Assembly: GCF_017302985.1 (NCBI RefSeq)
Contig: NZ_JAFIMU010000003.1
Span: forward strand, 1-64,000
DNA: 64,000 bases
Reading direction: 5' to 3'
Source of the DNA: Corallococcus macrosporus
GTDB lineage: Bacteria; Myxococcota; Myxococcia; Myxococcales; Myxococcaceae
Part shown: positions 31,993 through 49,737 of the stretch, one piece after another
Position numbering within the stretch: position 1 is the stretch's first letter
How the letters are laid out: each line of letters opens with the position of its first letter
Program-made: the position numbers and the translations under genes
Notes under the pieces: generated by a model
Databases searched by the model: none
The model's input: only the letters and a program-made list of their open reading frames with translations
What the model was told of the DNA's origin: nothing

Positions 31993-33483
31993 TCACCGCC
32001 CGAAGGGCAGGGTGGGCGGCGGCAGCCTCAAGAGGAACGTGTCACGGCTGCCCAGGGGCGGACTGCCCGCGACCAGACCGCCCTCGGTGGAGCCCACGAG
32101 CACGGCATTGCCGCATGGATCCACGGCCAGGCCGGTGACGTGGTCATCCATGGGAGTGCCCTGCTGCCAGGTCCCCAGCAGCCGCCCGTCCGCGCTGAAG
32201 CGCAGCACGAACAGGTCGCTTCCCCCCTGATTCACGAAGCCGGGGAAGCTCCCCAGGGTGTCGCCCGCGACGAGGACGTCGCCGTTGGGCGCCAGGGACA
32301 GGGCCATGGTCCGGTCTCCGTCCCGGGTGCCCACCTGCCGCACCCATTGCACCTGTCCGGAGTCGGGCTCGAGCCGCGCGAGGAAGACGTCCGTCTCTCC
32401 CACGACGGGGACGCCGGGCTCCAGCGCCATCTGGCTGGACCCCGCCAGCAACAGCTGGTGGTCGGGCGTCAGGAGCAGTTCGTCCGCCTCGGTGCCCGTG
32501 GGCGCGATGACGCTCGTCCAGAGGACGTGGCCGTCTTCCGGATCGTGGCGCTGGACGAACGCGCCGCCCGGTCCCTCTTCGTCCGCGAAGAACCGGAAGC
32601 CGGACGTGAACAGGGACTCGCCGTCGGGCGAGAGCGCCAGTCCCGTCAGCCGGTCCGGATTGTCCACCACCTGGGAGCGCACCCGCCAGGACGGCCCCTC
32701 GGGTCCACCTGGAGCCGGGAACCGGGCGACAAAGCCATTCTCCATGTCCAGGGACACGCGGTTCTGGACGAACAGGTCGTCATGGCCGACGACCACTCCC
32801 CGGCCCCGTGCATCGACCGCCACCTTCACCGGATGCTGGGGGCGCTCGTCGCCCTGCTGCGCGGTGTGCAGCAGGTTCCCCTCGCCATCCAGCTCCAGGA
32901 GGAAGACATCGAACTGGCCGCCATTGCCGTGCCCCTCCAGGGCTCCGGTGGTGCGCCCCACCACCCGCACCGTGCCGTCCTCGCGGCCTCCGACGACGTG
33001 CTCCGCCGTATCCGTCCCCGCCGTGTCCAGGCGCTTTCGCCAGAGCACCTGTCCATCGGCCGAGTACCGGGTCACCACCGCGCGCGAGTCGCCCGAGGGC
33101 TCGATGTTGGTCGCTCCGAGCACGCCCTCCCAGTAGCCCGCCGTGTAGAGGTCGCCGGCCTTGCTGACCCAGACGGACAGCGTCTCGTCCGCTCCCGCCG
33201 TGCCTTCCTGGCGGTCTCCCCGCCAGGGCGAAGCACACGTCACCGGACCCGCGTCCTCGCTCCCACCGTCAAAGCCGCCATCCAGTCCCGCGTCCGGTGC
33301 TCCCGCGTCCGGCGCTCCCGCGTCGACCGGGCCCGCGTCCAGGGTGCCGCCATCCGTCGTGGGGTCGACCTGGCCGGACGGCGAGGAAGTGCAACCCAGC
33401 CCGAACAGCCCGAACATGACTCCCAGGGCGATTCCCAGACAGGGACTCGCGGCTGTGCTGCGGCTCGTGTCGCGTCCCTGCAC
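31993..33483 (-). CDS. SBBP-like beta-propeller lipoprotein (paralogue A)
   Basis: A 496-residue protein. The signal ends in the lipobox FGLGC, and an Asp-Ala-Gly-rich linker (APDAGAPDAGLDGGFDGG) follows. The rest consists of SBBP-like propeller blades: DLYTAGYWEGVLGATNIEPS, VVGRTTGALEGHGNGGQFDV, VFVQR-type strands and DRLTGLALSPDGESLFTSGF. The C-terminal blade (GSRDTFLLRLP) is typical. About half of the residues look identical to the paralogue at 38182-39555. It is likely anchored at the cell surface. It lies last in the minus-strand gene row, after a terminator-like hairpin, so it may have its own promoter or be read through. No clear ribosome site precedes the GTG at 33483. Confidence 0.78.
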   Translation of the reverse strand: MQGRDTSRSTAASPCLGIALGVMFGLFGLGCTSSPSGQVDPTTDGGTLDAGPVDAGAPDAGAPDAGLDGGFDGGSEDAGPVTCASPWRGDRQEGTAGADETLSVWVSKAGDLYTAGYWEGVLGATNIEPSGDSRAVVTRYSADGQVLWRKRLDTAGTDTAEHVVGGREDGTVRVVGRTTGALEGHGNGGQFDVFLLELDGEGNLLHTAQQGDERPQHPVKVAVDARGRGVVVGHDDLFVQNRVSLDMENGFVARFPAPGGPEGPSWRVRSQVVDNPDRLTGLALSPDGESLFTSGFRFFADEEGPGGAFVQRHDPEDGHVLWTSVIAPTGTEADELLLTPDHQLLLAGSSQMALEPGVPVVGETDVFLARLEPDSGQVQWVRQVGTRDGDRTMALSLAPNGDVLVAGDTLGSFPGFVNQGGSDLFVLRFSADGRLLGTWQQGTPMDDHVTGLAVDPCGNAVLVGSTEGGLVAGSPPLGSRDTFLLRLPPPTLPFGR

Positions 33484-33520
33484 GTCGCACCCCCGGCCCT
33501 CGGGGCCTTCCCCATTCCAT

Positions 33521-33558
33521 ATCAGACAAACACCCGGGACCGCCGCCGGTCCCGGGTG
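33521..33558 (-). terminator. Rho-independent-type terminator after Hint gene 1
   Basis: The 12-base arms CACCCGGGACCG (33531-33542) and CGGTCCCGGGTG (33547-33558) are perfectly complementary with a four-base CCGC loop. Read on the minus strand, the stem is followed by TTTGTCTG. It lies 26 bases beyond the stop of the last Hint gene and 48 bases upstream of the SBBP A start. Confidence 0.7.
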
Positions 33559-33583
33559 CCGCCTGTCACGACGGAAGGACGTC

Positions 33584-34708
33584 CTACCGGGGGAGCAGGT
33601 CCTCGGGAACGGAGCGCTGCAGGATGATGCGGTTCATGAAGCCGACGTCCTCGTTCTGGTAGCGGGCGGAGCCCACCAGGAAGCCCTGGGCCACCAGGAC
33701 GTTGGTCACCTGGTCGCGGGTGATGGGCCGCAGGTTGTAGACCTTCCCGAAGTGCGTCGTCTTCTCCACGCTCACGACGCGCTCACGCGTGCCGTCCTGG
33801 CGCAGCAGCTCGTCATCCACCTTCAGGTCCGCCGCGCGAACCATCCGGCCCTCGCTGTTGACCACCGGGTGCTCGTTGGTCAGCCGCAGCTTGCCGCCAT
33901 TCTCGGTGAGGATGGTGTAGAGCAGGTGCTCGCTGTCGCGCGTCTCCGACGTGTAGCTGTAGACGTGGTTCGTCTGGAGTTGCACGTCGTCCAGCGTGGA
34001 GTCCGGCGTCAGGGTGACGATGTCCACCTGCTGCTCCTGGACCGCCTTGGAGATGGGCACCGTGCCCTGGCTGAACAACAGCTCCTGGTCCGGCGCGTAG
34101 CAACTGGACTCGCAGTTCGCCACGACGAAGAAGATTCCGCCGGTGTACAGCGTGTCGCCCTTGGCGTCGGAGTTGGTGTCCCGGTAGAGGCGGCAGTCGG
34201 TGGTGTCCGTCGGGTGCGGATAGAGCGGCGTCCCGGAGCCCGCGGGCAGCGACGTCTCGAAGGTCGGGTAGAGCGGCCGCGCGCGGGCCACGGTCGTGGG
34301 CGCGGGGTTCCACTTGAAGTACCCCGTGGTGAGGCCCGTGGTCTCCGCCTCCACCTTGAGGATGGGCGTCGCGTCATACATCGCGATCGCGTAGTAGTAA
34401 TTCACCCTGTAGCCCTGCGAGTTGCCTGTGTAGGCCCGCAGGGTGTCCTTCTCGATGTACTCCTTGGCGGGCGCGAAGTTGGTGTCGAAGGTCGTGGTGG
34501 AGGCCACCCAGTTCGAGGGGCCCGCGGGGTTGAGGTTGGTGAGCAGACCGCACCTGCGAGCCCATTCGGCGCGCACGATGGCCTGGCTTGGCGTCAGGCT
34601 GTCGACGTTGCAGCGCCACTCCTGCTGGGTCTGCGCGCCTGCCACGGTCGGGAACAGCGCGACGGCGGCCGCGCCCCCCAGGACGATTCTGAAGACAGAC
34701 TTGGACAT
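33584..34708 (-). CDS. Secreted Hint-domain protein 1
   Basis: A 374-residue protein with a Sec signal (MSKSVFRIVLGGAAAVALFP). The shared N-terminal domain (about residues 30-200) starts WRCNVDSLTPSQAIVRAEWA and includes YDATPILKVEAETTGLTTGY, LYPTFE and GSGTPLYPHPTDTTDCRLY. The C-terminal domain reads as a Hint self-splicing fold. The putative nucleophile Cys203 is in ANCESSCYAPDQELLFSQG, block B is RLTNEHPVV (Thr277-x2-His280), and then come VYNL (323-326) and LVAQGFLVGS. The last segment lacks the His-Asn of inteins and resembles the Hedgehog C-terminus. It would be exported, then cut itself at Cys203, releasing the N-terminal domain or attaching it to a nucleophile. That reaction is inference. 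Confidence 0.77.
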   Translation of the reverse strand: MSKSVFRIVLGGAAAVALFPTVAGAQTQQEWRCNVDSLTPSQAIVRAEWARRCGLLTNLNPAGPSNWVASTTTFDTNFAPAKEYIEKDTLRAYTGNSQGYRVNYYYAIAMYDATPILKVEAETTGLTTGYFKWNPAPTTVARARPLYPTFETSLPAGSGTPLYPHPTDTTDCRLYRDTNSDAKGDTLYTGGIFFVVANCESSCYAPDQELLFSQGTVPISKAVQEQQVDIVTLTPDSTLDDVQLQTNHVYSYTSETRDSEHLLYTILTENGGKLRLTNEHPVVNSEGRMVRAADLKVDDELLRQDGTRERVVSVEKTTHFGKVYNLRPITRDQVTNVLVAQGFLVGSARYQNEDVGFMNRIILQRSVPEDLLPR

Positions 34709-34791
34709 GGAATTCCCCTTCTTGGACAGACTGCCGCCCCCTCGTGTTTCAGCAGACCACCACCTGAACCTCCCCAGGGGGCGCGGGAGGC

Positions 34792-36009
34792 CTACTCCGG
34801 CAGCACTTCCGCCGGGATGCCACGCTGTCGCAGGACGCGGTTGAGCTGCTCCACGTCCTCGTTCTGGGGGCGGGACAGGCCCACCACGTACCCTTGAGAC
34901 AGCAGCAGCCGCGACACCGGATCCCTTGCATCCGGCTGGACGGCGTAGATCCTGGCGGACTGTGTCGTCTGTTTCACCGTCACGATGCGGTCCGGCGTCC
35001 CATCCATGCGCAGCAACGCATCCCCGGGCCGCAGCGACTCCGCCTTCACCAGCCGGCCGTCGCTCGTGAGGACGGGTTGCTCGCGCGTCACCCGCAGCAG
35101 GCCTCCGGACTCCGTGAAGAATTCATGGAAGCGGTGCTCGCTGTCGCCCAGGTCCGTCGTGTCGCTGGGCACGGGACTGACGCGCAGCACCGGGTTCTCC
35201 AGCGTGGCCTCGGGCCCCAGGACCGTCAGCTCCTCACGGCCCGCATGCGCGGCGTCCTGGGGGGCCGTGCCGTCATGGCCCAACATCAGCAACTGGTCCC
35301 CCGGGTGACAGCCGGACTCGCAGTAGGCCACCGCGTAGAAGGGCCGCTCGACCGTCTTGATGACGATGCGGCAACCGTCCCGGATGATGCCCTCCGGACC
35401 GGCAGGCTCGTCTTCCGCCCCCTGCAGGTACTCGATGGGCTCATCGTCACAGACGGTGGTCCGGGTCGTGGTCACCCACGGCGTGGTGCCCGCCGTGTCG
35501 CTGAAGAGGCGGCAGTCATTCGTGTTGGTGGGGTGGGGATACAGGGGCGTGCCGCTGCCCGCGACGTTGGTGCTCTCGAAGGTGGGGTAGAGCGGCCGCG
35601 CGCGCGGCGTCGTGTGGGACCACTTCCAGTAGCCGGTCGTGCCTCCGCTGGTCTCCTGGAACACGGAGTACATCGGCGTCGCGTCGTAGAGCGAGCGGGC
35701 GTGGTAGTAGTTGACGTTGTTGTAGTGCGTGTTGCCCGTGTACGCGTGGCTCGTGTCGGCCTCGCGGTATTCCTTGGCCCACGCGTAGCCGGTGTCGAAG
35801 GCCGCGGTCGAGGAGAACCAGGCCGCCGCGCCCCCCGTGTTCCGCCACAGCCCACACCGCCGGGCCCACTCGGAGCGCGCGATGGCCTGGTCGATCGTGA
35901 GGAAGTCGCTGCCGCACCGGGCCTGCTGCGGGTCCTGCGCCAGGGCGGAGCAGGGCAGCAGGCCGAGCGCGAGGACCTTCAGGGCCTGGGCAAGGTGGGG
36001 GCTTCGCAT
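34792..36009 (-). CDS. Secreted Hint-domain protein 2, catalytic His replaced
   Basis: A 405-residue paralogue of the neighbouring Hint proteins. The signal is MRSPHLAQALKVLALGLLPC and the shared N-terminal domain is recognisable (RARPLYPTFEST, SGTPLYPHP). It has an insertion of about 30 residues before the Hint part (VCDDEPIEYLQGAEDEPAG). The putative nucleophile Cys234 is kept (CESGCHPGDQLLML). Block B reads VTREQPVL, so Gln311 (CAA; TTG at 35077-35079 on the plus strand) replaces the catalytic His. The VYNL motif is also changed, to IYAV. It is therefore probably slow or inactive in self-processing, unless another residue substitutes. It lies 83 bases upstream of Hint gene 1 and 27 bases downstream of the haem-propeller gene. 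Confidence 0.77.
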   Translation of the reverse strand: MRSPHLAQALKVLALGLLPCSALAQDPQQARCGSDFLTIDQAIARSEWARRCGLWRNTGGAAAWFSSTAAFDTGYAWAKEYREADTSHAYTGNTHYNNVNYYHARSLYDATPMYSVFQETSGGTTGYWKWSHTTPRARPLYPTFESTNVAGSGTPLYPHPTNTNDCRLFSDTAGTTPWVTTTRTTVCDDEPIEYLQGAEDEPAGPEGIIRDGCRIVIKTVERPFYAVAYCESGCHPGDQLLMLGHDGTAPQDAAHAGREELTVLGPEATLENPVLRVSPVPSDTTDLGDSEHRFHEFFTESGGLLRVTREQPVLTSDGRLVKAESLRPGDALLRMDGTPDRIVTVKQTTQSARIYAVQPDARDPVSRLLLSQGYVVGLSRPQNEDVEQLNRVLRQRGIPAEVLPE

Positions 36010-36036
36010 GGGGCTCTCCGTGCGGCGGGGGCGCGG

Positions 36037-38163
36037 CTACTTCGTCTTCGCCATCACGGTTCCGGGGCCGCGGTTCTCGGTCCACACGACGTGGTCCCCG
36101 CCCACCGCCACGCTGGTGAGGTTGAACGTGGGGGTGAAGGCCTGCACCGCGGTGCCACCGCCCACCGGCACGCGGAGGATGCGCCCCGGCACCGCGTCCT
36201 CGGCCAGCCATACCTGCGTGCCGTCACTGGCCAGGCCCGTGATGGAGGCGCGCGTGAGCAGCGTGGACACGGTGCCTCCGCCCTTGGGCATCTTGCGGAT
36301 GGCATCCCCCTCCTGCCAGTAGACGCTGCCGCCATCCACGGTGATGCGGCCCGTGACGTTGGTGCGCTGGGTGATGACGTCCGAGCGGGTCCCGCCCTGG
36401 GTGGACATCTTCCGGAGGGCGCCGCCCTCGGTCCAGAACAGGGTCGTCCCGTCCGTGGCGATGCCGCCCAGCCCGGTGATGCCGCTGGCCAGGACCGTGG
36501 GCGCGGCGAGCGGCGTGGCCACCGGCAGCTTGAGGATGGAGCCCGCGGCTTCCGTCCAGTACAGGTGGGTGCCGTCGGTCGCGATGGCCATCGGCTCGTT
36601 GCGGTTGAAGGCCATCAACTGCTCGCCGCCGCCGTCCAGTGACGCGCGCATCACCACGCCGCCCGCGCGGCGCTCCACCCAGTAGGCGAAGCGGCCGTCC
36701 GACGCGGTGCCGGACAGGTTGAAGCGCGAGGGGGGCGTGAGCGGGTGCTCCGCGTTGAGGAAGTCCTCCATCACCTGCTTGCGGAACGGGATGAACGTCT
36801 GGGTGAGCGCGCTGGAGAGGAAGAACCGGTTGCCGTCCGGGCCCGGCTCCTGGAACTCCAGGTTGTGGATGAAGCCCGCGGCGCTGGGGAAGCGCAGGGT
36901 GCTGCCGTCCGGCAGGGTGCCCACGTCCGCGCTGTCGCTGCGCTGATGACAGCCACTGCAGGACAGCGCCTGCGCCCGGGCGACAATCTGCGTGGGCGTC
37001 AGGTCGCTGCCAATCATGTCGAGCCGGGACTGGATGTCATTGCGGAAGCCGCTGGGCCCGGTCCCGAAGCGCAGGCTGTACTCGTCCACGGCATTGAAGG
37101 TGCTGGAGTCGCCCTGGGCGGCGTTGAATTGATCCGGCACCGCGTAGTTGAAGGTGTTGAGGTTGTTGGTGGCCAGCGCGGGCACCTGGGTGAGGAAGTG
37201 CGCGCGGAAGCTGGCGGCCAGCGGGTGCGTGGAGGCGGGGTTGAACAGCTCGCCGAACGGGTTGGTCTTCACCGTCACCGGGGCGAACTTCAGGGTGCAC
37301 ACCCCGCCCGGGCACTGCCGCTGGAGCTTGAACTCCTTGAGCACCCACAGGGGCTCGATGAACACGTTGAAGCGCACCTGGCCGGTGCCGTCCGGGTTGA
37401 GGCCGTAGTTGTTGATGTGGAACACCGGCGAGAAGCCGGGCAGGCCCGTGAAGTAGAAGTCGCGCAGGGCAATGCCGCGGTCGGTGACGTTCTTCGCGCT
37501 CAGGTCGCGCCAGAAGGTCTGCACGGGGCGGCAGCCGTCGAGCCCCAGGTCCGGACGGGGATTGGGAAGCGAGGCCTCCAGGATGAGGAAGGCGCGGCCC
37601 GCGCCTCCGGACGTCTTGCCGAAGACGACCCGGTATTCACCGCAGTGGGCCCCGGAGACGGGCGCCAGGTCGAAGCGGTTGAAGAGGCCGATGGCGGAGT
37701 AGGAGTTGAGGGTCGTGGGGCTGTTGGCCGCCGCCTGGGCGCCCTCCTGGGGACGGCAGCCATACGGAAAGCCGTTGAGCGAGCCTCCGTTGTCATTGCA
37801 GTGCGCCCCCGGCTGCAGGTCCGGCTGGCCGGGGGAGGGGTTCTGCGTGTCCCAGAGCTGGCGGAAGAGCTGGGTGGCGTTGAGCCCCGTGCCCCCGTTC
37901 TGGGTGACGAGCTGCTGCAGGACGTTGGAGAGGGCGAAGTGGGCCAGGATGGAGGCCTCCGTCACCGCCACGGACTTGCGCCCGTCGACCGTCTGGGAGG
38001 CCAGGGCCGTCAACTCCCGCGCCTGCGAGGTGATGCCAATGCCTCCCCGCTCGGAGAAGGGCGCGGAGGGAGTGGACTCGGCGTCAACGGTTCCGGGCGG
38101 CTGACAGCCGGTCCCCAGGAGGGCTCCCGCGGCGAGGAGCGCGCGCGACCAGTGCTTGAACAT
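36037..38163 (-). CDS. Haem-c and beta-propeller lipoprotein (paralogue A)
   Basis: A 708-residue lipoprotein (MFKHWSRALLAAGALLGTGC). The long N-terminal part includes GLFNRFDLAPVSGAHCGEYR, RPVQTFWRDLS and FHINNYGLNPDGTGQVRFN. One haem-c motif, ALSCSGCHQRS, lies near residue 400. The C-terminal part is a propeller with repeated blades of the form MAIATDGTHLYWTEAAGSIL, GGIATDGTTLFWTEGGALRK and ITVDGGSVYWQEGDAIRKM. It is a close paralogue of the gene at 42882-44996. The single CxxCH implies one covalent haem, so it may take part in electron transfer or sensing. It starts 18 bases downstream of SBBP B and is followed by Hint gene 2, fitting one transcript. Confidence 0.8.
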   Translation of the reverse strand: MFKHWSRALLAAGALLGTGCQPPGTVDAESTPSAPFSERGGIGITSQARELTALASQTVDGRKSVAVTEASILAHFALSNVLQQLVTQNGGTGLNATQLFRQLWDTQNPSPGQPDLQPGAHCNDNGGSLNGFPYGCRPQEGAQAAANSPTTLNSYSAIGLFNRFDLAPVSGAHCGEYRVVFGKTSGGAGRAFLILEASLPNPRPDLGLDGCRPVQTFWRDLSAKNVTDRGIALRDFYFTGLPGFSPVFHINNYGLNPDGTGQVRFNVFIEPLWVLKEFKLQRQCPGGVCTLKFAPVTVKTNPFGELFNPASTHPLAASFRAHFLTQVPALATNNLNTFNYAVPDQFNAAQGDSSTFNAVDEYSLRFGTGPSGFRNDIQSRLDMIGSDLTPTQIVARAQALSCSGCHQRSDSADVGTLPDGSTLRFPSAAGFIHNLEFQEPGPDGNRFFLSSALTQTFIPFRKQVMEDFLNAEHPLTPPSRFNLSGTASDGRFAYWVERRAGGVVMRASLDGGGEQLMAFNRNEPMAIATDGTHLYWTEAAGSILKLPVATPLAAPTVLASGITGLGGIATDGTTLFWTEGGALRKMSTQGGTRSDVITQRTNVTGRITVDGGSVYWQEGDAIRKMPKGGGTVSTLLTRASITGLASDGTQVWLAEDAVPGRILRVPVGGGTAVQAFTPTFNLTSVAVGGDHVVWTENRGPGTVMAKTK

Positions 38164-38181
38164 GTCAGGTCTTCCTTTGGA

Positions 38182-39555
38182 TTAGAGCGGAGGCGACTGG
38201 GGCTGGGGGACGTCCACCTTGAGCAGGAACATGTCGCGGCTGCCCTGGTGCTGGCGGCCGGGCACGAGCGCGCCCTCGGTGTGGCCCGCCAGGAAGACCC
38301 TTCCGCACGGGTCCACCCAGATGGCCGTCGCCTGATCATTGCCGGCGGTGCCGCGCTGCCACGTTCCCCGCAGGCGCCCGTCCGCGCTGAAGCGCAGCAC
38401 GAACAGGTCCCGGGCACCCTGGTTGGTGAAGCCCGGGAAGCTGCCCTGGGTGGCGCCCGCGACGTAGAGGTCGCCGTTGGGCGCGCGGGCGAGCGCGGTG
38501 ACCAGCTCACTGCCCGCCGTGCCCACCGTCCGCAGCCACTGGACCTGTCCGTCGGCGGGGTTGAGCTGCGCGACGAAGATGTCCACCTCTCCCGCGTTGG
38601 GGACGCCCGGCTCCAGGGGCATCTGGCTGGAGCCCGCGAGGATGAGCTGGTTGTCGGGCGTCAGCAGCAGCTCGTCCGCCTCGGTGGCCACGGGCGCGAT
38701 GACGCTCGTCCAGACGACACCGCCATCCGCGGGGTTGAGGCGCCGGACGAACGCGCCGCCGGGCCCCTCGCTGTCGGCGAAGAACTTGAAGCCGGACGCG
38801 AACAGCGCGTCCCCGCTGGGGCTGGCCGTGAAGCCCGTCAGCCGGTCCGGGTTGGACTCCACGGTGGACGCGAACTTCCAGGCCGCGCTGGAGGAGAAGC
38901 CATTGCCGTCCCGGTTGATGCGGGTGACGAAGCCATTCTCCGAGTCCAGCACCACGCGGTTCTCGACGTACAGGTCCTCGTAGCCGGCGACGAACACGCT
39001 GCCATTGGGATGGACGGCGACCTTCAGCGGATGCTGCGGGCGCTCGTTGCCCTGCTGCACGGTCCGCTTCTTGTTGCCCTTGGCATCCAGCTGCGACACG
39101 AAGAGGTCGAACTGTCCCCGGTTGGTGGAGTTCTCCAGCGCGCCCGTGGTGCGGCCCACCACCGTCAGCAGCCCCAGGGACTCGTTGCCCACGATGTGCT
39201 CGGCGACGTCCGTGCCCCCCGTGTCCACGACCTCCGTGCGGTCCAGCGACCCGTTGGGGTTGAAGCGCAGCACCACCGCCCGCGAGTTGTCCGAGGGCTC
39301 GATGTTCGTCTTGCCCAGGCTCCCGCGGTCATAGCCCGCGACATAGACGGCGCCGGAGCTGCCGGCCCAGACGGAGAGCGCCTCGTCCGCGCTGGCGGTG
39401 CCGCCCTGGTAGTCCTGCTGCCAGGCCGTCTGGCACGTGCCCGCGGGCTCCTCGGGTTCGTCGTCACCCGTACAGCCCACCGTCCCCAGCACGCCCATGG
39501 CCATCACCAGCCCCCACCCCTTGCGCGTGCTCCGGCTCTCTCTGTGTTGCGACAC
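38182..39555 (-). CDS. SBBP-like beta-propeller lipoprotein (paralogue B)
   Basis: A ~457-residue protein that parallels SBBP A: VYVAGYDRGSLGKTNIEPSD, VVGRTTGALENSTNRGQFDL, DRLTGFTASPSGDALFASGF, SVIAPVATEADELLLTPD and RDMFLLKVD. The lipobox LGTVGC follows the hydrophobic stretch MAMGVLGTVG. I chose the GTG at 39555 because AGGTGG lies six bases upstream; an ATG at 39588 (MPRTNNNRWW) is the main alternative. Unlike paralogue A it has no Asp-Ala-Gly linker. It is likely surface-attached. It is the last gene of the first tandem block, and 18 bases later the haem-propeller A gene begins the second block. Confidence 0.78.
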   Translation of the reverse strand: MSQHRESRSTRKGWGLVMAMGVLGTVGCTGDDEPEEPAGTCQTAWQQDYQGGTASADEALSVWAGSSGAVYVAGYDRGSLGKTNIEPSDNSRAVVLRFNPNGSLDRTEVVDTGGTDVAEHIVGNESLGLLTVVGRTTGALENSTNRGQFDLFVSQLDAKGNKKRTVQQGNERPQHPLKVAVHPNGSVFVAGYEDLYVENRVVLDSENGFVTRINRDGNGFSSSAAWKFASTVESNPDRLTGFTASPSGDALFASGFKFFADSEGPGGAFVRRLNPADGGVVWTSVIAPVATEADELLLTPDNQLILAGSSQMPLEPGVPNAGEVDIFVAQLNPADGQVQWLRTVGTAGSELVTALARAPNGDLYVAGATQGSFPGFTNQGARDLFVLRFSADGRLRGTWQRGTAGNDQATAIWVDPCGRVFLAGHTEGALVPGRQHQGSRDMFLLKVDVPQPQSPPL

Positions 39556-39632
39556 TGACCACCACCTGTTGTTGTTTGTGCGGGGCATGGACCATCCATG
39601 CAATGGAAGACACGGGATGCGGGAGCGGGGCC

Positions 39633-40421
39633 TCAAGGCGCGGCGGAGTTGCGGGCCTGGGCCTGCATCTCCAGGCGGATCTGCTCCTCCTGGGTGCGGC
39701 GGCGCTGCTCCTCCTGCGCCATCCACCCGGTGAGCTTCTCCATGTTGGTGCCCCGGGCGCGCTCACCCAACGCGAGCGCCCGCTGCATGTCGTGCTCCGC
39801 CAGCAGGCGGTACATCTCCATCTTCCCGCCCGCGAGCATGTAGCGGCGCTCGGTGTCCTGGGCGCCGAAGATGTTCTGCTGGAGGATGATGTCCTCGGCG
39901 TGCGCGAGCAGCTGGTCGCGCTGGGGGTTGTCCTTCCACGCGAGCGCGGCCTTGAAGTAGTCCACCTCCATCAGCCGCTCGTACTGCTCCTGGGGCTGCA
40001 CCTCGCCGCGGCCTGGATCCTTCAGGCGGTCGGCCATGGTCTTCATCATCTCCGGCCCGGAGAGCAGCTTGCGGTACTCGTCGCGGCCCTGCGCGTCGAG
40101 CAGCACGTGCTTGTGGTAGTGCATGAACAGCCCCAGCGGCTTGTTGTCCTCCAGCGCCTGGGCGATCAGCTCCTTGGGCATCAGCGGAGGGCGCTCGGTG
40201 CCAGGGGGCGGTGCCTCCGCCTCGAGCAGGGGAGGCGCCTTCTCACGGGGACGCGGCGGGATGGGGGCCGCCGCGGCGGGCGGGGCGGCGGGCGGGCGCG
40301 GGGCCTCGGCCACGGGGGCGGCTTCAGGCGCGGGCGCTTCCTCTCCCGTCCAGAGCCAGACGCCTCCCACGACCGCCAGCAGGGCCAACCCCAGGACCAT
40401 CCACGAACGGCTGCGCTTCAT
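39633..40421 (-). CDS. Membrane-anchored protein with Pro-rich linker and helical domain
   Basis: A 262-residue protein starting MKRSRSWMVLGLALLAVVGG, one N-terminal membrane helix that leaves the rest outside. A Pro/Ala-rich linker (EAPRPPAAPPAAAAPIPPRP) precedes a mostly helical, charged domain: LFMHYHKHVLLDAQG, RDEYRKLLSGPEMM and MAQEEQRRRTQEEQIRLEMQ. The start at 40421 is preceded by GGGAGGAGAGCACC. It occurs only in the first block, between Hint gene 3 and SBBP B. It may be an inner-membrane partner for the exported Hint proteins. No family is recognised. The weakly coiled C-terminus suggests oligomerisation. Confidence 0.72.
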   Translation of the reverse strand: MKRSRSWMVLGLALLAVVGGVWLWTGEEAPAPEAAPVAEAPRPPAAPPAAAAPIPPRPREKAPPLLEAEAPPPGTERPPLMPKELIAQALEDNKPLGLFMHYHKHVLLDAQGRDEYRKLLSGPEMMKTMADRLKDPGRGEVQPQEQYERLMEVDYFKAALAWKDNPQRDQLLAHAEDIILQQNIFGAQDTERRYMLAGGKMEMYRLLAEHDMQRALALGERARGTNMEKLTGWMAQEEQRRRTQEEQIRLEMQAQARNSAAP

Positions 40422-40460
40422 GGTGCTCTCCTCCCAACCAAGACATCCAGGACCAGCGGG

Positions 40461-40487
40461 CCCGGGGCCCACGACGGGCCCCGGGCG
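40461..40487 (-). terminator. GC-rich terminator-like hairpin after Hint gene 3
   Basis: The 11-base arms GCCCGGGGCCC (40461-40471) and GGGCCCCGGGC (40477-40487) are perfectly complementary around the loop ACGAC. The element lies 31 bases beyond the stop of Hint gene 3. There is no U-tract, so it may only attenuate transcription or protect the 3' end of the mRNA. Confidence 0.45.
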
Positions 40488-40518
40488 GACTGCGTGTGAC
40501 GGGGGACGCTTCCGGGCG

Positions 40519-41637
40519 CTACTGGGGGAGCGCTTCGGCGGGGATGCCGCGGTACAGGATGATGCGGTTCATGTACTCGACGTCGTCGTTCTGGAAGCGG
40601 GCGGAGCCGACGAGGAAGCCCTGCGCGACGAGGACGTTGGAGACGGGGTCGCGCGCTTCCGGCTTGAGGTTGTAGACCTTGCCGGAGTGGGTGCCCTGCT
40701 CCACGGAGACGATGGCGTCCGGCGTGCCATCCGCGCGCAGCAGCTCATCCCCCACCTTGAGCGTCTGGGCCTGCACCATCCGGCCCTCGCGGTTGAGGAC
40801 GGGGTGCTCGTTGGTGACGCGCAGCTCACCGCCAGACGCGGTGCGCAGGTTGAAGATGATGTGCTCGCTGTCCCGGGTCTCGGACGTGTAGCTGTACACC
40901 TTGCCCTGGGCGAGCTGGGGCGCGTCCAGCGTGGAGTCGGGGCTCAGCGTGACGACGTCCTCGCGGCCCTGCTTCATGGCCTCCAGGATGTTCGCGTCGC
41001 CGCCGCTGAACAGCACGCGCTGATCCGGCGTGTAGCAGGAGGACTCGCAGTAGGCGACGACGAAGAAGCTGCTGCTGTTGGGCACCGGCGTCCCCGTGCC
41101 CGCCGGGTTGCTGTAGAGGCGGCAGTCGTCGGGGTTGGTGGGGTGCGGGAAGAGCTGCGTGCCCGTGCCCACGGAGGCGACGTTCTCGAAGGTGGGGTAC
41201 AGGGGCCTGGGCCGGGTGGCCGTGTGGGACCACTTGAAGTAGTTGGCCGTCGCGCCGGTGGTCTCCTGCGACACGGTGTAGAGCGGCGTCGCGTCGAAGG
41301 TGCCCCACGCGTGGTAGAAGTTGACGTTCCACTGGAACGCGCTTCCGGAGAAGGACTTGTCACCCAGCGGGTTCACCGCGGTGTTGACCTCCTTGTAGTC
41401 CTTGGCGAACTGGAAGGTCGAATCGAACGCGCGCGAGGACAGGAACCACGCCTCGGGGTTGAGGACGTTGCGGATGAGCCCGCACTTGCGCGCCCGCTCG
41501 ATGCGGATGGCGGCCTGCGCGGGCGTGAGGCTGTCGGTGCTGCAACGCCACTCCTGCAAAGGCTCGGCTTGCGCCGCCAGCGGGAAGAGGGACAGTGCCG
41601 CCAGCGCGGCGAGGGGACGTGAAAGGGATGAGGTCAT
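40519..41637 (-). CDS. Secreted Hint-domain protein 3
   Basis: A 372-residue protein with a Sec signal (MTSSLSRPLAALAALSLFPL, then AAQA). The common N-terminal domain is LQEWRCSTDSLTPAQAAIRI, KWSHTATRPRPLYPTFE and GTQLFPHPTNPDDCRLY. The Hint domain keeps Cys201 (CESSCYTPDQRVLFSGG), Thr275-x2-His278 (RVTNEHPVLN), VYNLKPE and LVAQGFLVGS. Processing is therefore expected to be possible. The start at 41637 is set by AAGGAGC upstream. It lies 54 bases after the stop of Hint gene 4 and is probably cotranscribed. Identity to Hint 4 is obvious by eye, so this looks like a recent duplication. Confidence 0.78.
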   Translation of the reverse strand: MTSSLSRPLAALAALSLFPLAAQAEPLQEWRCSTDSLTPAQAAIRIERARKCGLIRNVLNPEAWFLSSRAFDSTFQFAKDYKEVNTAVNPLGDKSFSGSAFQWNVNFYHAWGTFDATPLYTVSQETTGATANYFKWSHTATRPRPLYPTFENVASVGTGTQLFPHPTNPDDCRLYSNPAGTGTPVPNSSSFFVVAYCESSCYTPDQRVLFSGGDANILEAMKQGREDVVTLSPDSTLDAPQLAQGKVYSYTSETRDSEHIIFNLRTASGGELRVTNEHPVLNREGRMVQAQTLKVGDELLRADGTPDAIVSVEQGTHSGKVYNLKPEARDPVSNVLVAQGFLVGSARFQNDDVEYMNRIILYRGIPAEALPQ

Positions 41638-41691
41638 CCTGCTTGCTCCTTGGGTGTTCAGGGACACGGCCAGACAACAGACACCGGGGCG

Positions 41692-42786
41692 CTACTGCGG
41701 CAACACGTCGGCGGGGACGCCGCGGTACAGCAGGACGCGGTTCATGTATTCGATGTCGTCGTTCTGGAAGCGGGCGGAGCCGACGAGGAAGCCCTGGGCG
41801 ACGAGGATGTTGGAGACGGGGTCACGCGCCTCCGGCTTGAGGTTGTAGACCTTGCCGAAGTGGGTGCTCTTCTCCACGGAGACGATGGCGTCCGGCGTGC
41901 CGTCCTGGCGCAGGAGCTCATCCCCCACCTTGAGCGTCTGGGCCTGCACCAGCCGGCCCTCGCGGGTGACGACGGGGTGCTCGTTGGTGACCTTCAGCTC
42001 GCCGCCGGACGCGGTGCGCAGGTGGTAGAGCAGGTGCTCGCTGTCCCGGGTCTCGGACGTGTAGCTGTACACCTTGCCCTGGGTGAGCTGGAGGTCATCC
42101 AGCGTGGCATTGGCGCCCAGGGTGATGACGTCCTCGCGGCCCTGCTTCATGGCCTCCACGAGGTTCTTCTCCCCGTCGCTGAACAGCACGCGCTGGTCCG
42201 GCGCGTAGCAGGACGACTCGCAGTAGGCGATGACGTAGAAGTTGGAGGGCCAGACGGTGGTGCCCGCCGCGTCCGCGTAAAGGTTGCAGTCGTTCAGCGT
42301 GGGGTGCGGAAAGAGCTGCGTGCCGCTGCCGGCCACCGGGCTGTTCTCGAAGGAGGGGTAGAGCGTGCGGGGGCGGGTGCTGGTGTGCGTCCACTTGAAG
42401 TAGTTCGCCGTGGGGCCGGTCGTCTCCGGGGCCACCGTGTACATGGGCGTGTTGGCGTACTTCGAGAACGCGTAATAGTAATTGACGTTGTACTGGTTGA
42501 GGTTGCCCGTCCAGGCGCGGTTGGTGTTGAACTCCTTGTATTCCTTGGCCCAGTCGAAGTTCGTGTCGAAGGCCTTGCCCGACAGGAACCACGCGTTCGG
42601 GCCCGCCGGGTTGAGGTTCTGGGTGAGGCCGCACTTGCGGGCCCACTCGATGCGCGCCTGGGCCTGCTCCGGGGTGAGGCTGTCGACGCTGCAACGCCAT
42701 TCCTGCATGGGTTCAGCGACCGCGGCGGCGGGCAGGAGGGTGAGGACCGCGACCTTCAGGAAGGGGGAAGGGGAAGGCTTGCGCAT
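41692..42786 (-). CDS. Secreted Hint-domain protein 4
   Basis: A 364-residue protein with a Sec signal (MRKPSPSPFLKVAVLTLLPA, then AAVA), the first Hint gene of the transcript. The N-terminal domain (MQEWRCSVDSLTPEQAQARI, FKWTHTSTRPRTLYPSFE, GTQLFPHPTLNDC) precedes the Hint domain. Cys193 is in CESSCYAPDQRVLFSDG, Thr267-x2-His270 is in KVTNEHPVV, and VYNLKPE and LVAQGFLVGS follow. Both catalytic motifs are intact. The SETRDSEHLLYHL segment between blocks is nearly invariant in Hints 1, 3 and 4. Export and self-cleavage are inferred from the fold, not shown. The gene lies 95 bases downstream of the haem-propeller B stop, and a hairpin sits in the gap. Confidence 0.78.
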   Translation of the reverse strand: MRKPSPSPFLKVAVLTLLPAAAVAEPMQEWRCSVDSLTPEQAQARIEWARKCGLTQNLNPAGPNAWFLSGKAFDTNFDWAKEYKEFNTNRAWTGNLNQYNVNYYYAFSKYANTPMYTVAPETTGPTANYFKWTHTSTRPRTLYPSFENSPVAGSGTQLFPHPTLNDCNLYADAAGTTVWPSNFYVIAYCESSCYAPDQRVLFSDGEKNLVEAMKQGREDVITLGANATLDDLQLTQGKVYSYTSETRDSEHLLYHLRTASGGELKVTNEHPVVTREGRLVQAQTLKVGDELLRQDGTPDAIVSVEKSTHFGKVYNLKPEARDPVSNILVAQGFLVGSARFQNDDIEYMNRVLLYRGVPADVLPQ

Positions 42787-42839
42787 GTGGGACCCATCGC
42801 GTGAGCGGTTGAAGGGAACAGCGGAGCTGGGAGGAAGGA

Positions 42840-42860
42840 GGCCCCCCTGGCAGGGGGGCC
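42840..42860 (-). terminator. Hairpin between haem-propeller B and Hint gene 4
   Basis: The arms GGCCCCCC (42840-42847) and GGGGGGCC (42853-42860) surround the loop TGGCA. The hairpin lies 21 bases beyond the haem-propeller B stop, and no U-tract follows. It may be an attenuator that lowers downstream Hint expression relative to the first gene. Confidence 0.45.
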
Positions 42861-42881
42861 GGTGACGCGTCGCTGGGAGGG

Positions 42882-44996
42882 CTACTTCACCTTCGCCATG
42901 ACGACGCCGGGGTTGCGGTTCTCCGTCCAGACGACGTGGCCGCCGCCCGCGGAGATGCTGTTGATGCTGAAGGCCGCGGCGAAGGTGGCCACCGGTGCTC
43001 CGCCCGCCAGGGGGAAGGCCAGCACGTTGCCGGGGTTCAGGTTCTCCGCCACCCAGAGGCGCACGCCGTCACTGGCCAGGCCGGTGATGGAGGGCCGCGA
43101 GGTGAACACGCCGAGGGCGCCGCCGCCCTTGGGCATGCGCTGCACGTCGTTGCCCTCCTGCCAGAAGAGGTGGGTGCCATCCACGGTGAGCAGGCCCGTG
43201 ACACCCGGGCGGCCGCTGACGAGCGTGGTGGGGGCGCCGCCCGCCACGGGCAGGGACAGGATGGAGCCGCCCTGGGTGACGAACAGGCTGGTGCCGTCGG
43301 TGGCGATGCCGCCCAGGCCCGTGAGGCCCGTGGCGAGCGTGGACACCGCGCCGCCGTTGACGGAGACCTTGAGGATGGAGCCCGCGGCTTCTGTCCAGTA
43401 CACGTTGACGCCATCCGTCGCGACGGCGATGGGGTCCGGGCGGTTGAAGGCGAGGACGCTCTCGCCGCCGCTGTCGAGCGAGGCCTTCATCACCACGCCG
43501 GTGCCGCGGCGCTCCACCCAGTAGCCGAAGCGGCCATCCGTGGCGGAGCCGGAGAGGTCGAACCGGGAGACGGGGGTGAGCGGGTGGTCCGCGTTGAGGA
43601 AGTCCTCCATCACCTGCTTGCGGAAGGGGATGAAGGTGTTGGCGAGCGCGCTGGACACGACGAAGCGGGTGCCTTCAGGCCCCGTCTGGGTGCTCTCCGT
43701 GCTGTGCACGAAGGACGCCGAGTTCGGGAAGGAGATGCCGCCGCCCATGGCGCCGCCGCTGCTGCGGTCATGGCAGCCGCCGCAGGACAGGGCCTGGGCG
43801 CGGGCGACGATCTGGTTCGGCGTGAGCGGGCTGCCCAGCCGGGTGAGCTCCGCCTGGATGTCGTTGCGGAAGGTGCTGGCGCCGCTGCCGAACTGGGCCG
43901 CGTAGTCATCCTCGACACCGAAGGACTGCGCGTCGCTCTGGGCGGCGTTGAACTGATCCGGAACCGAGTAGTTGAACGTGTTGACGTTGTTGACCGCCAG
44001 CTCCTCCACCTGGGTGATGAAGTGCGCGCGGAAGCTGGGGGCCAGCGCATGCGTGGAGGCCGGGTTGAAGAGCCGGCCCGCCGGGTTGGCCTTCACCGTC
44101 ACGGGGGCGAACTTCAGGGTGCACACCCCGCCCGGGCACTGGCGCTGGATCTTGAACTCCTTCAGCATCCACGGCCCGTTGATGAACATGTTGACGCGCA
44201 CCTGACCGATGCCCGCCGGGTTGAAGCCGTAGTTGTTGATGTGGATGACCGGCGAGAAGCCCGGCAGGCCGGTGAAGTAGAAGTCGCGCACGGCGATGGC
44301 GCGGTTGGCCAGCGTCTTCGTGCTCAGGTCGCGCCAGAAGGACTGGACGGGACGGCAGCCATCGATACCCAGGTCCGGACGGGGATTGGGAAGGGCGGCC
44401 TCGAAGATGATGAAGTTGCGTCCGCCGCCTCCGCCTGTCTTGCCAAAGACGACGCGATACTCACCACAGTCGGCGCCGGAGGTGGGGGCCAGGTCAAAGC
44501 GGTTGTAGATGCCGATGGCGGAGTAGGAGCCGATGTTGGTGAGGCTGGTGGGGACCGCCTGCGCGCCCTCCTGGGGACGGCAGCCATTGGGGAAGCCGTT
44601 GAGCAGGTTGCCACTGTCCGTGCAGTGCGCGCCCGGCTGCAGGTCCGCCTGCCCGGGCGACGGCGTCTGCGTGTCCCAGAGCTGGCGGAAGAGCTGGGTG
44701 CTGTTGAGCCCCGTGCCCCCGTTCTGCGCGGCCAGCTGGTTGAGGACGCCGGACAGGGTGAAGTTGGCCAGGATGGCCGTCTCGGTCAGCACCACCGACT
44801 TGCGGGCATCCACCGTCTGGGGCGTCACCGAGCCCAGTGCCTGCGACTGTCGCCGGCTCGTGACACCCATTTCACCACGGTCGGAGATGGGATCCCGGCC
44901 CGCCGCCGCCGGGGCCTCATCCGGCCCCTCGGCCTGACAACCCGCGCACAACATGGCTCCGGCCGCGAGCGCGGCCTTGAGAGAGTGCTTCAGCAT
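42882..44996 (-). CDS. Haem-c and beta-propeller lipoprotein (paralogue B)
   Basis: A 704-residue lipoprotein (MLKHSLKAALAAGAMLCAGC), first gene of the minus-strand row. The body matches paralogue A throughout: GIYNRFDLAPTSGADCGEYR, PVQSFWRDLSTK, IHINNYGFNPAGIGQV and FIPFRKQVMEDFLNADHPLT. One haem-c motif, ALSCGGCHDRS, is near residue 403. The C-terminal propeller has units such as VATDGVNVYWTEAAGSILKV and GGIATDGTSLFVTQGGSIL. It is expected at the outer face of a membrane, carrying one covalent haem. GGAAGGA precedes the ATG. The strong promoter-like sequence at 45065-45093 lies about 70 bases upstream. Confidence 0.82.
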   Translation of the reverse strand: MLKHSLKAALAAGAMLCAGCQAEGPDEAPAAAGRDPISDRGEMGVTSRRQSQALGSVTPQTVDARKSVVLTETAILANFTLSGVLNQLAAQNGGTGLNSTQLFRQLWDTQTPSPGQADLQPGAHCTDSGNLLNGFPNGCRPQEGAQAVPTSLTNIGSYSAIGIYNRFDLAPTSGADCGEYRVVFGKTGGGGGRNFIIFEAALPNPRPDLGIDGCRPVQSFWRDLSTKTLANRAIAVRDFYFTGLPGFSPVIHINNYGFNPAGIGQVRVNMFINGPWMLKEFKIQRQCPGGVCTLKFAPVTVKANPAGRLFNPASTHALAPSFRAHFITQVEELAVNNVNTFNYSVPDQFNAAQSDAQSFGVEDDYAAQFGSGASTFRNDIQAELTRLGSPLTPNQIVARAQALSCGGCHDRSSGGAMGGGISFPNSASFVHSTESTQTGPEGTRFVVSSALANTFIPFRKQVMEDFLNADHPLTPVSRFDLSGSATDGRFGYWVERRGTGVVMKASLDSGGESVLAFNRPDPIAVATDGVNVYWTEAAGSILKVSVNGGAVSTLATGLTGLGGIATDGTSLFVTQGGSILSLPVAGGAPTTLVSGRPGVTGLLTVDGTHLFWQEGNDVQRMPKGGGALGVFTSRPSITGLASDGVRLWVAENLNPGNVLAFPLAGGAPVATFAAAFSINSISAGGGHVVWTENRNPGVVMAKVK

Positions 44997-45064: not shown

Positions 45065-45093
45065 ACTATTGACTCACTCACAGTGAAAGTCAA
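45065..45093 (-). promoter_or_regulatory. Sigma70-like promoter overlapping a dyad
   Basis: Read on the minus strand, TTGACT (45088-45093) and AATAGT (45065-45070) are separated by exactly 17 bases, a good -35/-10 pair about 70 bases upstream of the haem-propeller B start. The same stretch contains an inverted repeat (TTGACT with AGTCAA, inner CACT with AGTG) between about 45069 and 45093. A repressor or activator could use it. The promoter call is by inspection only. Confidence 0.55.
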
Positions 45094-46368: not shown

Positions 46369-46465
46369 CTTCACTGCCTCCATGTTTCGGCCCTTCCTGT
46401 TGGCCACACTCTAGTCCGCGCAGGTATCCGGCCGGGCACGAGTGTCCAGCGCTACGCTGCCCGGC

Positions 46466-47296
46466 ATGGACTCCCCGCCCGAAGCCGACCTCTCCACCGA
46501 CGAGCTCTTCGCCCGCACGCTCCAGGGGGATGAGGAGGACGCGGGCGCGTGGCGCGCCATCTGGCAGTTGCACCACCGCGGTGGCGAGGACGTCTTCCAG
46601 CGCGCCGCGGCCTGGCTCCAGTCCTCCTCCGCGAAGGAGCGGGGCCGCGGCGCGAACGTCCTTGCACAGCTGGACTTCCGGAACCGGTCTCCGGAGCTCG
46701 TCGCACGCTTCACGGACGCACTCCTGCCGGCGCTCGCGAAGGAGCAGGATGCCGCGGTGCTGGAGGCCATGGCCGCTGCCCTGGGCCACCTGGGGGACCC
46801 CCGCGCGGTCCCCGCGCTCCTTCCCCTGAAGGACCACCCGGACGCGCACGTCCGCTTCGGCGTCGTCATGGGGCTGTCGGGGCACCGGGATGCCCAGGCG
46901 CTCCAGGCCTTGATTCATCTCTCCCGTGACTTCGACGAGACCGTGCGCGAGTGGGCCACGTTCACGCTCGGCTCCCAGGCGCGCGAGGTGGACACGCTGG
47001 AGCTGCGCGAGGCCCTGGTGGAGCGGCTCTCCGAGGACCACCCGAAGATTCGCGGAGAGGCGCTGCTGGGCCTGGCCTTGCGCAAGGACGCGCGTGCCCT
47101 GGAGCCGCTGCGGCGCGTGCTGGAGGAGGGCGTGGTGACCACGCTGGACGTGGAGGCGGCCCAGGCGCTGGAGGATGTCTCACTGCTCCCCCCGCTCCGG
47201 GAGCTCCGCGAGTCTGTCAATGAAGAGGACGACGACCCCGAGTTCCGCGCGGTCCTCTTCGAGGCCATCCACGTCCTGGAGTCGCTGTCTCGGTGA
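46466..47296 (+). CDS. HEAT-repeat protein
   Basis: A 276-residue soluble helical protein. After a short acidic start (MDSPPEADLSTDELFARTLQ) it consists of ~30-residue helical pairs. Examples are LEAMAAALGHLGDPRAVPAL, HVRFGVVMGLSGHRDAQALQ and IRGEALLGLALRKDARALEP, the pattern of bacterial HEAT or PBS-lyase-like repeats. Such proteins act as scaffolds for protein-protein contact. The ATG at 46466 is used, although a GTG 24 bases upstream is in frame. No operon partner is evident: the gene is divergent from the exported-protein gene and converges on a membrane protein gene. Confidence 0.8.
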   Translation: MDSPPEADLSTDELFARTLQGDEEDAGAWRAIWQLHHRGGEDVFQRAAAWLQSSSAKERGRGANVLAQLDFRNRSPELVARFTDALLPALAKEQDAAVLEAMAAALGHLGDPRAVPALLPLKDHPDAHVRFGVVMGLSGHRDAQALQALIHLSRDFDETVREWATFTLGSQAREVDTLELREALVERLSEDHPKIRGEALLGLALRKDARALEPLRRVLEEGVVTTLDVEAAQALEDVSLLPPLRELRESVNEEDDDPEFRAVLFEAIHVLESLSR

Positions 47297-48698: not shown

Positions 48699-48915
48699 GA
48701 CAACCTCCTGGAGGGGCTGACACCCGTTCGGAATACCGCGGCAAGAGCTGCGGCCTGAAAACGGTAGCCCTGCAGGGAAAAGCCGTCAAAGCGGTACAGC
48801 CCGGGCCTGTCTCCAGGTGTTCGAAGGCGTGTCAGGTCCGGGTTCCAGTCTTCGTGTGTTGTGGACACGAAGGCTGCCGGGTCCATCCCGGGAGCCGCCA
48901 GCCAGGGAGGGGGCC

Positions 48916-49737
48916 ATGTCGCTGAAGGGAATCGCGCAGGAGACCGTCGGAATCGTGGAGCAGGGCGAGTACGTGGCACCGTCCGGGAGGCCCGTGCGGT
49001 TCCGGGAGCAGGTGGAGCACGCCCTGCGCGGGACGCGGCTCTACCGGCCCGGTGACTTCGAGCGGCTGCCCCGGCCCGAGCCTCGCGTGGAAGGCGCCGC
49101 GCTTCGCATCGAGGTGACGCCGGAGAAGACCGGCGCCGCGTCGCGCCGGTGCGTGGAGGCGGAAGGAGTGACGGACGTCGTCGCGCTCAACTTCGCGTCC
49201 GCGAAGAACCCGGGCGGCGGCTTCCTGGGCGGAGCGAAGGCGCAGGAGGAGGACCTGGCGCGCTGCTCGGCGCTCTACCCGTGCCTGCTCACGCAGCGCG
49301 AGTACTACGACGCCAACCGTGCGCAGTCCTCGCCGCTGTACACGGACCACGTCATCTACTCACCCCAGGTGCCGTTCTTCCGGGACGAGGGCCTCACGCT
49401 GCTGGAGAAACCCTTCCGCGTGTCCGTCATCACCGCGCCCGCGCCCAACGCCGGTTCAGCCGCGCGGAACGCACCGCACCTGCTGCCCCGCATGCGGGAG
49501 GTGCTGCAAGCGCGGGCGGTGAAGGTGCTCCAGGTGGCGGCGCACCACGGGCACCGCACGCTGGTGCTGGGAGCGTGGGGCTGTGGCGCCTTCCGCAACC
49601 AGCCGCACGACGCGGCGGAGGCCTTCGCCAGCGCCCTGGACGCCTTCCCCGGCGTCTTCGAGCGCGTGGTGTTCGCGGTGTGGGAGCGGGGAGGGGACGG
49701 CCCCAACCTGCGGGCCTTCCGCGAGCGGTTCGCCTGA
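48916..49737 (+). CDS. Bacterial-type poly(ADP-ribose) glycohydrolase (TIGR02452 family)
   Basis: A 273-residue protein of the TIGR02452/microbial PARG group. The catalytic loop is intact: NFASAKNPGGGFLGGAKAQE, then EDLARC, giving GGG-x7-QEE, where the two Glu act on the ADP-ribose bond. AAHHGHRTLVLGAWGCGAFRN is the macro-domain-like part. It removes poly- or mono-ADP-ribose from targets in the cytoplasm. The start at 48916 is set by GGGAGGGGGCC. No ADP-ribosyltransferase or toxin gene is adjacent, so it appears to be an orphan hydrolase. A role in countering ADP-ribosylating toxins is possible but not shown. Confidence 0.87.
   Translation: MSLKGIAQETVGIVEQGEYVAPSGRPVRFREQVEHALRGTRLYRPGDFERLPRPEPRVEGAALRIEVTPEKTGAASRRCVEAEGVTDVVALNFASAKNPGGGFLGGAKAQEEDLARCSALYPCLLTQREYYDANRAQSSPLYTDHVIYSPQVPFFRDEGLTLLEKPFRVSVITAPAPNAGSAARNAPHLLPRMREVLQARAVKVLQVAAHHGHRTLVLGAWGCGAFRNQPHDAAEAFASALDAFPGVFERVVFAVWERGGDGPNLRAFRERFA

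Follow-up and report, generated by a model that had tools for sequence, protein, structure and literature searches.

The DNA analysed here, referred to as the window, is a stretch of 64,000 nucleotides of Corallococcus macrosporus, a predatory bacterium of soils (NCBI RefSeq assembly GCF_017302985.1, contig NZ_JAFIMU010000003.1, positions 1 to 64,000 of the forward strand), and this work deals with a run of nine genes on its minus strand, between positions 31993 and 44996. The run encodes two haem-propeller proteins, four secreted proteins ending in a Hint domain, two SBBP propellers and one membrane protein (MP). Judged from the sequences, it is probably a form, duplicated and specific to this lineage, of an envelope system of the Myxococcota that centres on Hint proteins and is built on a self-cleaving protein, composed of an N-terminal domain (Nd) and a Hint domain, and on a dedicated MP.

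Organisation of the locus

The genes have been named from the start of transcription (Table 1). In the 5' to 3' direction, hemeA, Hint1, Hint2, MP and SBBP-A make up block A (44996 to 38182, called B in the initial annotation) and are followed by hemeB, Hint3, Hint4 and SBBP-B, MP being present in a single copy and in the first-transcribed block only. The nine same-strand genes described in the initial annotation were all recovered as open reading frames at the same places, and the gaps of about 18 to 100 bases given there hold once plausible start codons are taken. The products had also been regarded as exported or lipidated, of which lipidation is not firm: the haem and SBBP proteins carry a Cys after a hydrophobic segment, but their lipoboxes are non-canonical.

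A single operon is plausible for all nine genes, for which the promoter-like site upstream of hemeA is weak evidence. Two promoter-like sites were found in the region, against 0.5 expected from shuffled sequences. The only terminator-like match on the coding strand within the run lies inside Hint4, and the whole region holds three terminator-like sites, against 6.3 expected by chance.

Table 1. Features of the nine-gene run (positions in the window; aa, amino acids)
Feature	Position	Strand	Description
Promoter-like site	45065..45093	-	directly upstream of hemeA; consensus match 9/12
hemeA	42882..44996	-	704 aa, secreted; N-terminal c-type-haem domain (CGGCH, residues 405-409) and C-terminal propeller-like domain
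Hint1	41692..42786	-	signal peptide, Nd to residue 192, Hint from Cys193, TNEH motif, no C-terminal His-Asn
Hint2	40519..41637	-	architecture as in Hint1; open frame from 41667
MP	39633..40421	-	N-terminal membrane helix, then a Pro-rich linker and an all-helical domain (residues 82-260); open frame from 40472
SBBP-A	38182..39555	-	exported propeller with SBBP/delta-60 repeats; frame open from 39726, start probably the GTG at 39555
hemeB	36037..38163	-	hemeA paralogue, 65% protein identity; CSGCH
Hint3	34792..36009	-	decaying copy; TREQ in place of TxxH (His lost); evolves faster than the other block genes
Hint4	33584..34708	-	Nd-Hint; Cys and TNEH intact
SBBP-B	31993..33483	-	SBBP-A paralogue, 58% protein identity

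Duplication history and selection

An order-preserving duplication of the whole block had been proposed. This is borne out by the gene order and by DNA repeats of up to 300 nucleotides (62-83% identity), which join blocks A and B in register; it does not extend to MP, which is unduplicated, nor cleanly to the Hint pair. The Hint1 protein is 70, 52 and 59% identical to Hint2, Hint3 and Hint4, respectively. In the Hint tree each of the four positions forms its own group, with Hint1 nearest to Hint2 (support 80-84) and neither a Hint1-Hint3 nor a Hint2-Hint4 pairing. Because Hint1 groups with Hint2, a single clean four-gene duplication is not shown for the Hint pair, which would have had a history of its own, through either later duplication or conversion.

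The search of other myxobacterial genomes for the block, recommended in the initial annotation, was run and located the double block in three more: Corallococcus praedator CA031B (G063), C. terminator CA054A (G071, split over contigs) and a genome from another genus of the same family (G114). Since it occurs in three other genomes and two genera, the double block is old. Moreover, in the haem tree the four genomes contribute two clades, one of hemeA and one of hemeB (support 100/97 and 100/100), so that the duplication is older than these species.

Compared with C. praedator, the ratio of nonsynonymous to synonymous substitution rates is 0.19-0.33 for eight of the block genes and 0.60 for Hint3. 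The latter is also the only Hint protein of the block with a broken catalytic motif, with TREQ in the window and Pro replacing Thr in C. praedator and C. terminator; the motif is intact in G114.

The Hint domain

The assignment of these proteins to the Hint family, made in the initial annotation, is supported by the predicted fold. In the structure prediction of Hint1, the Hint part is modelled with pLDDT (predicted local distance difference test) values mostly of 80-93, and its closest folds in the PDB are inteins, BIL domains and Hedgehog (TM-score 0.82, by target, for the BIL domain 2lwy and 0.75 for the Hedgehog autoprocessing domain 1at0). At the level of sequence profiles, Hint1 reaches the NCBIfam intein_Nterm cut-off (29.6 vs 24.5), while the Pfam Hint matches stay below theirs (best E per protein 2e-5 to 0.09).

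Among 67 aligned Hint proteins, Cys193 is found in 66, Thr267 in 65 and His270 in 66, and the residue before the Cys (position -1) is Gly, Ser or Ala in all of them; Cys and the TxxH motif are also kept in seven distant Hint loci. The small residue at -1, Cys1 and TxxH are those of Hedgehog-type proteins, and so is the layout, in which a secreted N-terminal domain leads straight into a Hint domain at the C-terminus (the signal peptide was judged by eye). The C-terminal His-Asn that, with a +1 nucleophile and a C-extein, characterises inteins is absent from the 67 aligned proteins, mostly Gly-Ser or Gly-Asp (xGS/xGD) being found there, and therefore splicing is not expected. A Hint fold with motifs A and B and no block G His-Asn is what defines Type B BIL domains, and the present proteins show this combination. 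As a separate observation, a Hint protein with Ser for the catalytic Cys is encoded at L045:9559-10659, downstream of a Hint gene and of genes of the families cl11 and cl9 (see below).

The best Pfam match is to PT-HINT (E 2.3e-5 for Hint2, below cut-off), which would point to a delivery similar to that of polymorphic toxins, with Nd or a downstream part as the toxin. In PT-HINT proteins a toxin module follows the Hint domain; here, the proteins end about 23 residues past the Hint fold, in a conserved tail (Q341 in 65/67), and Nd is N-terminal. Furthermore, free Nd genes show no recurrent small neighbour (maps judged by eye) and none of the nine block proteins has a match in PADLOC, which makes this possibility very improbable.

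The N-terminal domain and the predicted cut site

Nd has no significant Pfam match, and none to the Hedge signalling domain. However, it also exists without a matched Hint domain, in 17 distinct proteins found by search (L044 and L083 containing the same gene). Ten of these are made of one or two Nd, with their own stop codon 2-4 residues past the last conserved Cys; of the remaining seven, six run into PPC domains and one is a short diverged match. In 66/67 Hint proteins the spacing from the last Nd Cys to Cys193 is exactly three residues. The stops of the Hint-less proteins thus match the Nd-Hint junction, and a cut before Cys193 would yield, within one residue, a protein which is encoded outright elsewhere. 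These stop positions are the strongest indirect evidence for self-cleavage obtained here, not a proof of it, and the self-processing suggested in the initial annotation is likely.

Two further ideas were discarded. The conserved Cys189 had been considered as a redox trap for Cys193; it belongs to Nd, as a Cys is retained at the same place in Nd proteins without Hint. An apparent fusion of Nd to a subtilase was wrong, the match falling on the PPC domains which end the subtilase query.

Alternatively, the Hint domain could be a folded appendage, for binding or oligomerisation, which does not cut. The persistence of Hint3 without its motif and the Pfam scores under the cut-off agree with such a role, whereas the retention of the catalytic residues in nearly all of the 67 proteins, the position of the junction, where Nd proteins without Hint naturally end, and the weakest purifying selection, found in Hint3, argue against it, and we consider a non-cutting appendage unlikely.

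MP, the constant partner

The initial annotation had put the membrane protein in brackets, missing the most constant partner of the Hint genes, as well as the subtilase found in relatives. A profile search detected 36 MP genes in 28 of 142 genomes, and each of the 36 has a Hint gene at 3 kb or less. Among the matches listed, these 28 genomes are exactly those with a full-type Nd-Hint protein (E below about 1e-59), and MP occurs within 10 kb of 32 of the 45 full-type Hint clusters. Distances were counted from 75 full-type and 46 short-type Hint rows, among the matches listed; rows with Nd only, the parts of split Hint3 genes, a single piece of 63 residues and weak matches to part of the profile (about 241-341) were excluded. 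The locus L037 has an MP, which the calling of open reading frames for the neighbour survey had missed.

The MP model contains a well-predicted all-helical domain (pLDDT 80.6 overall), with no clear fold relative in the structure comparison. A lipase-specific foldase (Lif) was considered because of its similar succession of transmembrane segment, linker and helices, and found no support, Lif being absent among the fold matches listed. Possible stand-ins for MP in other loci are the families cl19 and cl11 (hhalign probability 84% and 71%), values only suggestive of a relationship.

The presence of a dedicated membrane partner throughout the 28 genomes, together with the Hedgehog-like layout, the small residue before Cys193 and the conserved C-terminal tail, would also agree with a Hedgehog-like conjugation, in which a surface lipoprotein, glycan or lipid resolves the thioester through an amine or hydroxyl group and Nd becomes covalently attached to it, the tail after the Hint fold recognising the acceptor and MP or a propeller being the acceptor or its carrier. 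No acceptor was identified, though, the tail is short, and hydrolysis needs nothing further, for which reasons conjugation appears rather improbable.

Variable partners of the Hint genes

The identification of SBBP propellers in the initial annotation was correct: SBBP-A and SBBP-B reach the Pfam gathering score (23.0 vs 20.5). They also resemble the LipL53 NCBIfam model (94.9 and 105.4 bits), below its equivalog cut-off of 400. Twenty of 28 SBBP rows have a Hint gene at a distance of 10 kb or less (Hint rows among the matches listed), and 12 of these rows are outside the genomes of the block. The repeats of SBBP-A match the sequence of CylK structures (7fh6, E 9e-29), probably through a shared repeat type only.

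Gene neighbourhoods were surveyed in hand-picked loci (33 with full-type Hint genes, 14 with haem genes outside the block and eight with free Nd), several per genome and many of them orthologous, so that the fractions are not independent. In the 33 full-type Hint loci, a subtilase was found in 16, SBBP in 12, families cl5 and cl3 in 14 each and the haem protein in three, while none of the 14 haem and eight free-Nd loci contained MP, a subtilase or SBBP. The subtilases are S8 enzymes with PPC domains. Families cl5 (vitellogenin-N/HEAT, membrane-anchored as judged by eye) and cl3 (exported, by eye) accompany Hint and MP, for instance at L062:4664-8146, and are absent from the block of the window.

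A short Hint subfamily adjoins thermolysin-like M4 and M1 peptidases in four of six loci (L060, L061, L063 and L076). In three of these four the MP-like cl19 is also present, which gives another arrangement built from similar components. In addition, cl9, an exported family of 460 amino acids, lies beside Hint genes in L045, L052, L067, L075, L086 and L129, accompanied by the weakly MP-like cl11 in all of them except L129, where it was not seen. That cl9 could be a subtilase was not shown (hhalign 0.4%, in a weak comparison with a badly chosen tenth alignment row at 20% identity; no PDB or Pfam match).

Near the block, the window encodes a HEAT-repeat protein, divergent from it (46442-47293, plus strand), and a microbial PARG-type enzyme (48817-49734, plus strand).

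Occurrence in distant Myxococcota

The association of Hint with MP and a propeller extends beyond close relatives. Polyangium sp. y55x31 (L089), which we take to be a member of another order, has the arrangement Hint-MP-SBBP. In two loci (L124 and L128) from a family of the same phylum with low GC content and genomes of 1.3-1.8 Mb, Hint is found together with an S8 peptidase, MP (hmmsearch E 1e-29 and 4e-24) and a propeller of the Kelch type, assigned by Pfam for L124 and by eye for L128. Weak MP matches accompany Hint in L125 and L094, so that MP is present in four of seven distinct distant loci; in L129, Hint adjoins a relative of cl9.

The haem-propeller protein

The CxxCH haem c motif reported in the initial annotation is present in both haem proteins of the block, as CxGCH, as it is in 26/26 aligned domains, with one site each. 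The N-terminal module found no Pfam family; among known cytochrome and peroxidase families, only a weak CCP_MauG match (E 0.27) was obtained. The module is common in myxobacteria, with 95 rows in 44 of 145 genomes, six of the rows being propeller-only. Only seven of the 95 lie near an Nd-Hint gene (Hint rows among the matches listed), all in the block, an eighth block copy being on a contig fragment, and the haem protein was therefore rejected as a core member outside the block. In this block it is, from the gene neighbourhoods, apparently a local addition to the Hint system.

The initial annotation had named paralogues scattered singly without Hint as a sign against the association. This is partly what is observed: most haem relatives stand alone, but 11 further rows, in 11 genomes of one genus, adjoin a different Hint protein of 650 amino acids (compared by eye), whose family is present in 44/145 genomes. 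In L105:6542-11986 and L108:4001-13684, two of the 14 haem loci surveyed as controls, the haem and 650-residue Hint genes are followed by a protein with propeller-like repeats (by eye), and in L108 three such Hint genes surround one haem gene. As these haem genes are not sister to those of the block in the haem tree, the haem-Hint-propeller combination arose twice or was lost often. Elsewhere, the N-terminal haem domain serves as a reusable module, joined to RCC1 propellers, a ricin-B lectin or Ig-like domains (L104:5853-9482, L109:6258-10241, L106:5194-7419 and L102:5900-7861).

Thus, of the proposal that the three protein types work together, the association of Hint with propellers is supported, from the SBBP rows, Polyangium and the distant loci, while the haem protein does not belong to the system in general. 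A plain tandem expansion of exported genes that do not function together would account for the many haem relatives away from Hint genes and for the many paralogues of these exported families in the searched genomes. It is nevertheless highly unlikely, as no MP was found away from Hint, the same kinds of parts are kept in a distant low-GC lineage and the double block is under purifying selection in four genomes.

Proposed mechanism

Gene order, fold, motif conservation, co-occurrence and the stop positions of Hint-less Nd were computed here, and from them we infer the cleavage, the fate of the thioester, the membrane topology and the roles of the partners. The arrangement that best explains the data is a system whose core would be the secreted Nd-Hint protein and MP, with propellers and peptidases as exchangeable partners. 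Each Hint gene would give rise to a secreted Hedgehog-like precursor, consisting of signal peptide, Nd, Hint and short tail. After export, Cys193, assisted by Thr267 and His270, would convert the Ser192-Cys193 bond into a thioester; splicing would not follow, as the C-terminal His-Asn and the +1 nucleophile are missing. Water or an outside nucleophile would then resolve the thioester, and Nd, ending in ...YCESS, would be set free or passed on. MP may be an inner-membrane-anchored periplasmic helical protein dedicated to Hint, holding, gating or handing on the product, while the propellers, and the subtilase in many relatives, may act as surface or periplasmic partners. The haem-propeller protein would have joined the system in this lineage.

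Several points weigh against this scheme. No cleavage product has been seen, and the same pattern of Nd stops would be expected if Hint had merely been attached at a natural domain edge. At the position resembling F:4, as read from the alignment, 63/67 proteins have Asn and not the Asp of inteins, and the Nd part of the Hint1 model is poor (block means mostly pLDDT 30-60). As regards the partners, 13 of the 45 full-type Hint clusters lack MP within 10 kb, among the matches listed; at least three of these are on contig fragments and some have the weakly related cl11 instead. The block of the window contains no subtilase or other peptidase gene, and two of the seven distant loci, L127 and L126/L092 (the latter pair being the same locus), show no MP and no peptidase.

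Relation to known systems

Secreted bacterial proteins with a C-terminal Hint-like domain, including MXAN_6253 and STIAU_1829, were noted in 2008 (PMC2362128). As described there, they share with the present proteins secretion, the C-terminal Hint-like domain, upstream conserved cysteines and myxobacterial members, and the Hint proteins of the block appear to be of this kind. The section of that paper devoted to them assigns no function and mentions neither a gene neighbourhood nor a membrane partner, a peptidase, a propeller or an N-domain standing alone; in searches of the open-licence literature, no description was found of MP and the other partners, of Nd in its free form or of the added haem protein.

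BIL-type Hint domains without the block G His-Asn can form the N-terminal thioester and cleave, without splicing (PMC4031507). The proteins studied here share that fold and that absence, and differ from Type B BIL domains in having no C-terminal flanking protein and in their fixed operon partners. With the Hedgehog precursor and its Hog domain they share the signal peptide, N-terminal domain, terminal Hint, small residue before Cys, TxxH and fold, whereas no Hedge signalling domain and no identifiable sterol region is present, only the conserved short tail.

It is conceivable, at a low probability, that the system is a bacterial counterpart of Hedgehog, in which the self-cut precursor hands the Nd thioester to a dedicated membrane or surface acceptor, with fixed partners (helical membrane anchor, subtilase and beta-propeller) across distant Myxococcota, and to which the Corallococcus haem-propeller protein might add redox sensitivity. 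The constancy of MP and the natural occurrence of free Nd lead to testable predictions on the position of the cut, the mature product and the protein that handles it, and the findings would bear on the origin of Hedgehog-type processing.

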